From an uncultured Flavobacteriales bacterium (GTDB taxonomy: Bacteria > Bacteroidota > Bacteroidia > CAIKAF01), in contig CAILUT010000018.1 in assembly GCA_903837495.1 (NCBI GenBank), positions 1 to 47,232 on the forward strand: a stretch of 47,232 nt of DNA, given 5' to 3'. The notes under the pieces were generated by a model. The model worked only from the letters and a program-made list of their open reading frames with translations, did not search any database and was not told where the DNA came from. Position 1 is the first letter of the stretch; the number at the start of each line of letters is the position of its first letter. Both the position numbers and the translations under genes were made by a program. Below, in pieces: positions 16,568-43,471 of this stretch.

Positions 16568-16717
16568 GGGCGGTTGCGGGCTTTCAGCGCTAGTCCGCGG
16601 TGCCGGGGCGCTGCGGCAGCGGGCCCAAGGTAGCTCCCAAGGTCGCTCCTTGGTCCGCGCGCCGCTGTGCCCCAGCCCCTTGCGGGCAAGCTGCTTCAAT
16701 CCCTACCGCTGCCCCCT
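16568..16717 (+). repeat. Giant-hairpin repeat family A, copy A2
   Basis: Ends match the other A copies: GCGGGCTTTC near the start and TCAATCCCTACCGC at the end. The hairpin pairs GGGGC 16605-16609 with GCCCC 16669-16673, GCGGC 16613-16617 with GCCGC 16661-16665, GCGG 16619-16622 with CCGC 16655-16658, and CCAAGG 16625-16630 with CCTTGG 16648-16653. The 17-base loop TAGCTCCCAAGGTCGCT (16631-16647) is identical to that of A3, although the stems are unrelated. It lies between the protease 3' end and the DUF1573 promoter. Confidence 0.82.
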
Positions 16718-23351: not shown

Positions 23352-23500
23352 GGGGCGCCCGCGCTCCGGATGGAGTCGGAAAGCCCACAGCCACAGTGCT
23401 GCTGCCGGCCGCAGCGAGGAGGCGACGCGAGGAGCCACCGCAGCGCGCAGCCGGCAGAGCACTGTGGCGAGGACTTGGAGCGACAGCCGGAAAAGCGCCC
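23352..23500 (-). repeat. Giant-hairpin repeat family A, copy A5 (subtype 2)
   Basis: Between two divergent promoters. In the minus orientation the ends are TTTTCCGGCTGTCGCTC and CTCCATCCGGAGCGCG, shared with copy A6 but not with A1-A4. GCCACAGTGCT (23390-23400) pairs perfectly with AGCACTGTGGC (23458-23468), and CTGCCGGC (23402-23409) with GCCGGCAG (23450-23457), 19 consecutive pairs. The central motif (23421-23436, minus strand GGCTCCTCGCGTCGCC) matches the apical loop of the other copies. Confidence 0.8.
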
Positions 23501-29293: not shown

Positions 29294-29342
29294 ACGGAAA
29301 CGTTGAGGTTCGTGCTTCCTTGCGGCGCAGGGTACGAGTATT

Positions 29343-29395
29343 GGGCGAGGGATTGCAGTGGAAATGCCCGCAGGGCATTGGAGCGGAAAGCCCGG
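29343..29395 (-). repeat. Short relative of repeat family A (A7)
   Basis: In minus orientation: GGGCTTTCCGCTCCA, then a 6-bp hairpin ATGCCC-TGC-GGGCAT, then TTCCACTGCAATCCCTCGCC. The outer ends agree with A1-A4 (GGGCTTTCCGC and CAATCCCT), but the long stem and conserved loop are replaced by a small hairpin. It lies between the convergent genes lipA and der and may serve as a terminator. Confidence 0.6.
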
Positions 29396-29431
29396 TGCCA
29401 GCCCTTAGGCCGGCGCGCCCCCAAAAACCCC

Positions 29432-32943: not shown

Positions 32944-33093
32944 CCGCCCGGGCCCCGGATGGAAGCGGCAGCCGCAGGTGGGCGGGGCGGTTGCGGCCCC
33001 GGCGCCGGGGCGACCTTGGGAGCCACCGGAGCAGGGCTGCTGCAACCTGCCTTGCCCGCCTGGGGCTAGAGCTGACAGCCGGAAATGGCCCCC
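32943..33093 (-). repeat. Giant-hairpin repeat family A, copy A6 (subtype 2)
   Basis: Abuts the truncated gene. Minus-strand ends TTTCCGGCTGTCAGCTC and GCTTCCATCCGGGGC match copy A5. Pairing: CAGGTGGGC 32975-32983 with GCCCGCCTG 33054-33062 (one G-T), GGTTGC 32989-32994 with GCAACC 33042-33047, CCGG 33005-33008 with CCGG 33026-33029. The loop 33009-33024 reads GGCTCCCAAGGTCGCC on the minus strand, nearly identical to A2 and A3. Confidence 0.82.
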
Positions 33094-39563: not shown

Positions 39564-39706
39564 GGGCGGCGGGCGGGCTTTCCGCGCTACTCCGCAGTCC
39601 AAAACGGGCCGGCCCCCGCCCGGCAGTAGCTCCCAAGGTCGCTCTGCCGGTCCAGGGCCGGCAGCCGTTTTGTCCTTTGCGGGGTAGCTGCGTCAATCCC
39701 TGCCGC
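39564..39706 (+). repeat. Giant-hairpin repeat family A, copy A3 (cleanest)
   Basis: Ends: CGGGCTTTCCGCGCTACTCC and GCTGCGTCAATCCCTGCCGC; the ends themselves resemble each other as inverted repeats. Stem: CAAAACGG 39600-39607 with CCGTTTTG 39665-39672, GCCGGCCC 39608-39615 with GGGCCGGC 39655-39662, CCGGCAG 39620-39626 with CTGCCGG 39644-39650, all perfect. Loop 39627-39643 is TAGCTCCCAAGGTCGCT. The 635-base gap 39401-40035 also holds the operator, the palindrome at 39786 and repeat D2; no gene is supported in it. Confidence 0.85.
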
Positions 39707-39785
39707 GTTGTTCCGTTTGGGGTGTGGGGGTTGAAATTGGGTTTGATTCCGTTAACCTACATCCGAAAAATTTTGCGTCGTTACC

Positions 39786-39813
39786 GTAGAGACGCAAAAT
39801 TTTGCGTCTCTAC
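39786..39813. repeat. GTAGAGAC...GTCTCTAC 28-bp perfect palindrome, copy 2
   Basis: Same arms as 10158-10185, with the centre GCAAAATTTTGC instead of AGCCCATGGGCT. A partial copy (AAATTTTGCGTC, about 39764-39775) lies just upstream, as if half of a second palindrome remains. Perfect pairing despite a wholly different centre indicates that the structure is maintained or copied as a unit. Confidence 0.85.
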
Positions 39814-43155: not shown

Positions 43156-43330
43156 ATTTTTTTTTCAGAAATAAAAATCAGATTTTTGAAAAAAGGCAAA
43201 AAAATCGGCCATTAAACAAGGTTGTTTTTTTTATCCAATTTGAACGGGCCCATATCCATCGCACCTAAGAACGCGCTGTACCTGGCCTTCTGCCCAACTT
43301 CAAATCTGATTTTCTAAACGGCCAGGAGCC

Positions 43331-43471
43331 GCGGCAGGGATTGACGCAGCTACCCCGCACAGGTGCCGAAGCCTGGCCCGCTAGGTGCGGAGGCGACTTT
43401 AGGAGCCCCCGCAAACCAGCTGGGCCAGCCTTTCGGCAGCTGCGGAGTAGCGCGGAAAGCCCGGCTGCCGC
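43331..43471 (-). repeat. Giant-hairpin repeat family A, copy A4
   Basis: In minus orientation the ends are GGGCTTTCCGCGCTACTCC and GCGTCAATCCCTGCCGC, identical to A3 over most bases. Stem pairs: TGCCGAA 43364-43370 with TTCGGCA 43432-43438, GCCTGGCCC 43371-43379 with GGGCCAGCC 43422-43430 (one mismatch), TGCGG 43386-43390 with CCGCA 43409-43413. The loop 43392-43407 is GGCTCCTAAAGTCGCC on the minus strand. It fills much of the gap 43156-43563 between the T9SS gene and nth. The T-rich stretch just after 43155 may end transcription of the former. Confidence 0.82.

Follow-up and report, generated by a model that had tools for sequence, protein, structure and literature searches.

Hairpin elements in the window

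The window, by which we mean the whole stretch of 47,232 nucleotides analysed here, contains copies A1 to A6 of a hairpin repeat. On the forward strand lie A1 (hairpin body at 2536-2677, 98 bits), with the tip GCTCC-TCGC-GTCGC at 2598-2611, A2 (16571-16711, 109.7 bits), with the tip GCTCC-CAAG-GTCGC at 16633-16646, and A3 (39568-39708), which has the same tip as A2 at 39629-39642. On the reverse strand, A4 (23359-23496, 63.2 bits; tip GCTCC-TCGC-GTCGC at 23422-23435) has the variant base CCGGCTGTC/TCCATCCGG, A5 (32948-33088; tip GCTCC-CAAG-GTCGC at 33010-33023) has orthologues in the compared genomes G005 and G002, and A6 (43329-43469, 145 bits; tip GCTCC-TAAA-GTCGC at 43393-43406) bears the amplified arm TGCCGAAAGGCTGGCCCAGC. 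A possible short relative at 29341-29400 on the reverse strand, which has the base only and neither the long arm nor the tip, scored weakly (21.1 bits, E 0.09) and is kept in G005 (L068:13812-13871).

The first-pass annotation had concentrated on the loop of A2 and reported it to be identical to that of A3 over 17 bases. Both 16631-16647 and 39627-39643 do read TAGCTCCCAAGGTCGCT, and the identity in fact extends to 19 bases, GTAGCTCCCAAGGTCGCTC; the tip that it gave for A1, TAGCTCCTCGCGTCGCT, is also present, and A4 to A6 carry GGCTCC..GTCGCC with the outer pair jointly changed from A..T to G..C. What was called a loop is, however, the apex of an imperfect hairpin of about 140 nt, with a fold energy of about -70 to -104 kcal/mol per element and, for A3 folded as DNA, z-scores of -5.9 and -7.2 on the two strands.

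Anatomy of the hairpin

Read from the outside inwards, each element consists of a T-run, a GGGCGG outer arm, the base, a short variable pairing, an AGTCCGC/GCGGGCT-like pairing, a variable stem and the tip. The T-run, mostly of 3-9 T, is found on one side only, 5' of the hairpin, and a hairpin followed by a U-run was seen on neither strand of the repeat. The tip is laid out as GGC-TC-C-N4-G-TC-GCC, in which ten fixed bases, GCTCC...GTCGC, flank four or five variable apical bases (TAAA, CAAG, TGAA, TAAC, TCAC and others). The conserved base reads GGGCTTTC...TCAATCCC and is laid out as GGGC-TT-TC / TC-AA-T-CCC, with pyrimidine mismatches in fixed positions. A TC/TC mismatch is therefore present in both tip and base, and read directly on the opposite strand it is a tandem G.A, which may have structural meaning in these two places. 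The stem between tip and base is variable but covarying: with 63 copies, RNAalifold predicted 26 pairs, and 22/26 had changes on both sides.

Copy number and distribution

The source genome, G000, is that of an uncultured Flavobacteriales bacterium (2.51 Mb in 67 contigs, completeness 100), and its closest named relatives are MAGs, for example K_DeepCast_35m, casp15 and LaPlata. Extraction of the tip pattern across this genome, as the first-pass annotation had proposed, gave 195 occurrences of GGCTCC-n-GTCGCC and 61 of AGCTCC-n-GTCGCT, against a single occurrence of the reversed pattern used as a control in each case, and in the window there are 3 exact GGCTCC-n-GTCGCC against 0.02 expected by chance. 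The frequency of the tip pattern in the window and in the genome is not due to chance. The repeat thus lies between genes in more than 250 copies in G000, and G005 carries about 190. Many G000 contigs begin or end within a copy (C3:5-20, C13:15-30, C22:10-25, C24:43-58, C25:2-17 and C34:9-24 are examples), from which it follows that the repeat breaks the assembly and that its copy number is probably underestimated. The compared genomes are likewise MAGs whose contigs break at the hairpin repeats, and each genome was read in part.

In a survey of 395 members of the class, the high-copy tip was limited to four of the six species of the genus of G000, together with two genomes of family f41 with 10 and 4 tip copies. 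The repeat had no match in Rfam 15 at the gathering score, and a relaxed threshold returned sub-threshold matches only, mostly to microRNA-precursor models. A plasmid collection queried with a protein of the window gave no match, and a literature search on the base sequence of the repeat showed no relevant paper among those listed.

Related hairpins with different tips are found in G001, G004, G014 and G055, and several of them have the same base (L073 7081 in G001, L237 7601 in G004, L085 4136-4276 and L077 136-277 in G014). Other tips are shared among these, for example GC-TTGCTGCGCTCC-GC in G001 and G004 and a larger one in G014, so that the type of tip seems to vary from lineage to lineage; since two species of the same genus have related hairpins with a different tip, this tip cannot be essential throughout the genus.

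Constraint on tip and base

When elements were detected by the base motif and the fold, leaving the tip unused, the exact tip was present in 65/65. Conversely, among the best 40 tip-less hairpins listed when 421 kb were scanned by folding, there were no members of the family. We then compared 13 orthologous pairs anchored by their flanks, and found changes at 1/130 positions in the tip (0.8%) and 1/208 in the base (0.5%), compared with 132/1234 in the stem (10.7%), 5/53 in the apical N4 and 915/4673 in the flanks (19.6%). Pairs changed on both sides numbered 24 versus 3.8 expected, and 20 of them still pair. This set of pairs is biased in that the tip was demanded in both species, and the comparison was repeated with targets detected by the base only: in 72/75 comparisons (reciprocals included) the tip was exact, and in the other 3 it had one mismatch. 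Taken together, these counts indicate that tip and base are fixed to about the same degree, and that the stem and the apical loop are free.

These results bear on the suggestion that the hairpin keeps only its tip constant, which was taken as the mark of a recognition signal and which a larger set of copies, with loops no more conserved than stems, would have contradicted. The loop is indeed conserved far beyond the stems in the ten bases around the apex, as expected of a recognition signal, but the true apical N4 is variable and the base of the hairpin varies as little as the tip, so the tip is not the sole constant part. Tip and base are probably recognised by something in the cell, although a constraint this strong could also reflect ongoing short-tract gene conversion without function.

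Conserved sites and replaced arms

At sites anchored by flanks of about 80% identity between G000 and G005, 17/17 and 16/17 were occupied, in the same orientation, and the single exception is half an element. Close species have the repeat fixed at most of its sites, and over that distance its movement is no longer detectable. Apparent flips of orientation between species proved to be mostly cross-assignments within facing pairs. In comparison with G002, about a quarter of the G000/G005 sites differ, being without the element; gain or loss therefore does occur, as in a mobile element. At such empty sites the insertion junction and target duplication were unreadable, the sequence beside the element being too diverged.

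At one locus (L119/L262/L290), the same base is found in three species with three unrelated arms, and A3 and its orthologue in G005 (L067:15379-15519) likewise share the base and differ in the arm, as do L028 and L102. The distal arm is thus replaced wholesale while the locus-specific base is kept. One 31-nt arm sequence is present in 28 copies in G000, 48 in G005, 3 in G002 and 3 in G003.

Most bacterial repeats of about 140 bp are explained by a transposase. The repeat might be a mobile element of the non-autonomous kind, similar to a REPIN or MITE, with a tip and base that are or were read by a transposase now lost from G000 or of a family beyond our searches, and its conservation would then reflect recent activity. 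The high copy number and intergenic location suit this explanation, as do the T-run abutting one end, which is a possible target, the difference at about a quarter of sites between species at about 75-79% identity and the recent amplification of one arm sequence. There are also 10 distinct close pairs, all of which face each other (+,-) at 41-86 bp. The spacers of these pairs are unrelated, however, so the pairs were not copied as units, and the amplified arm, where it could be traced, is in elements that the sister species already has. Near-complete sharing of sites between G000 and G005 also argues against mobility, and in the 13 unswapped pairs tip and base differ by less than 1% while the flanks differ by about 20%, when old immobile copies should decay.

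The enzyme expected in such a case is an IS200/RAYT-like (Y1) transposase, and the first-pass annotation had proposed a search for one tracking the element. The PF01797 (Y1) profile had no match in the complete G000 and none in G005, and no Y1 transposase was found in G014. A weak match in G000 (E=0.27) was rejected as RimP, which we take it to be from its sequence and its position in front of nusA. G001 and G004, of the same genus, have several Y1 genes and almost no exact tips, and a search of the flanks of the Y1/RAYT genes of the relatives for the base motif and strong hairpins showed no consistent flanking by the element. The proposed association is thus not supported, and a transposase of the IS200/RAYT kind was discarded as the reader of the tip. 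Overall we consider a mobile element a serious but rather doubtful explanation.

Position relative to genes

Gene context was obtained for 142 elements from ad hoc, heuristic gene calls. The elements lie between tandem genes in 77 cases, convergent genes in 41 and divergent genes in 24, compared with about 84, 27 and 30 expected by intergenic length. Between tandem genes, the median distance to the upstream stop is 31 bp and that to the following start 116 bp, and 41 elements are co-directional and 36 anti.

The clustering near stops and the mild excess between convergent genes, together with a very stable fold and conserved mismatches that are tandem G.A on one strand, are what would be seen if the repeat were an RNA element of 3' untranslated regions, acting as a stabiliser, terminator or processing signal, with an RNA-binding protein or RNase as its reader. 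Nevertheless, the lack of any orientation preference relative to genes makes a strand-specific RNA role or a terminator unlikely, and the elements between divergent genes, the sole T-run being 5' of the hairpin and the absence of an Rfam match at the gathering score also count against it. We therefore regard this explanation as improbable. An intrinsic terminator likewise has a GC-rich hairpin, often near a stop codon, but in our repeat the T-run is on the wrong side, the orientation is random and 24/142 elements lie between divergent genes. At one locus in G002 (L301 4082-4246), an element directly follows the T-run of an intrinsic terminator, and its counterpart in G005 (L089 4212-4372) has the terminator without the element.

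SbcD is a subunit of a palindrome nuclease, and none was found over the family cut-off in seven genomes that abound in long palindromes (G000, G001-G005 and G014), which gave weak partial matches only; its weakness or absence may help palindromes to persist. That the repeat is simply a selfish or neutral palindrome without function, homogenised by gene conversion and by each arm serving as the template for correcting the other, would agree with this, with arms that remain complementary and with arm swapping as a sign that conversion-like exchange happens, but it seems the least probable explanation, because correction between arms leaves the fixed mismatches of tip and base unexplained and because tip and base stay immobile while the stem and apical N4 change freely.

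Comparison with known repeat families

REP and REPIN families consist of hundreds of intergenic palindromes with compensatory changes, conserved blocks and a variable part, and facing doublets (PMC2817692, PMC3116915). Our repeat resembles them in its more than about 100 intergenic palindromic copies per genome (195 plus 61), in a pairing kept by compensatory changes (22/26 pairs; 24 versus 3.8) and in its inverted doublets, even if the spacers of the latter are unrelated. It differs in being about 140 bp long, compared with 20-40 bp for REPs, and in conserving tip and base, whereas REPINs conserve two REPs with a variable spacer between them. It also has no constant GTAG/GTGG tag at the foot of the hairpin; a GTAG-like block, paired with CTAC, takes the forms GTAG/CTAC, GTTG/CAAC and CTAC/GTAG. 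Furthermore, there is no RAYT in G000, and elsewhere no RAYT is flanked by two inverted copies of the repeat. With neither the tag nor the RAYT association, a several-fold greater length and a conserved tip, the repeat is a REP-like variant and not a RAYT-REP. Nor does it fit an IS200/IS605-derived MITE, for which a Y1 gene is expected in the genome and G000 has none, although a transposase from outside the genome or of another family may exist. CGTC-tagged palindromic repeats are abundant, have no flanking transposase and have been reported in Bacteroidetes too, but they are short with CGTC at one end (PMC3733652), and no CGTC tag was seen in the present repeat.

The attC sites of integrons are long imperfect hairpins with paired variable stems, fixed unpaired positions and one structurally distinct strand. 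In attC the tip is variable, while here it is conserved, and our repeat is singly interspersed and not in cassette arrays, without an integron integrase over the cut-off: TIGR02249 had no match over this cut-off in nine genomes and none at E<=1e-30 in G000.

Proposed evolution and role of the repeat

Our preferred reading, to which we give a probability of about one half, is a REP-like DNA hairpin of about 140 bp that is vertically inherited and replaces its arms, with tip and base read by a putative protein. The working form would be DNA and not RNA. Copies evolve by two routes: compensatory substitutions arise in the stem, and the whole distal arm is exchanged for another while the base peculiar to the locus stays in place. 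For the second route, the simplest mechanism would be gene conversion, with the base and tip shared by the copies as its anchors. The fixity of tip and base is most likely due to a protein that would bind there, either to the hairpin, extruded or single-stranded, or to the duplex. More tentatively, we suggest that these are host-maintained, genome-wide DNA hairpins with exchangeable arms, which present two modules, the tip and the base, to a putative chromosomal protein. Perhaps such a protein takes part in recombination or in the organisation of the chromosome by acting on hairpins that are extruded or single-stranded.

Hundreds of these hairpins per genome stay in place, their arms rewritten and their tip and base unaltered, and G000 lacks the Y1 enzyme that one would expect. 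Should a protein read them, this would be a new genome-wide system of DNA-hairpin recognition; should none do so, they would offer a clear natural example of arms being exchanged and corrected in palindromes.

Other palindromes

A separate family of small palindromes, GTAGAGACGC...GCGTCTCTAC, is present in the window at 39775-39800 and in G002 at L208 850-1400. Two of its copies are at or adjoining a RAYT-like ORF in G002, and consequently it may be the RAYT-cognate REP of this group. A similar hairpin, GTAGAGACAGC...GCTGTCTC, is found in G000.
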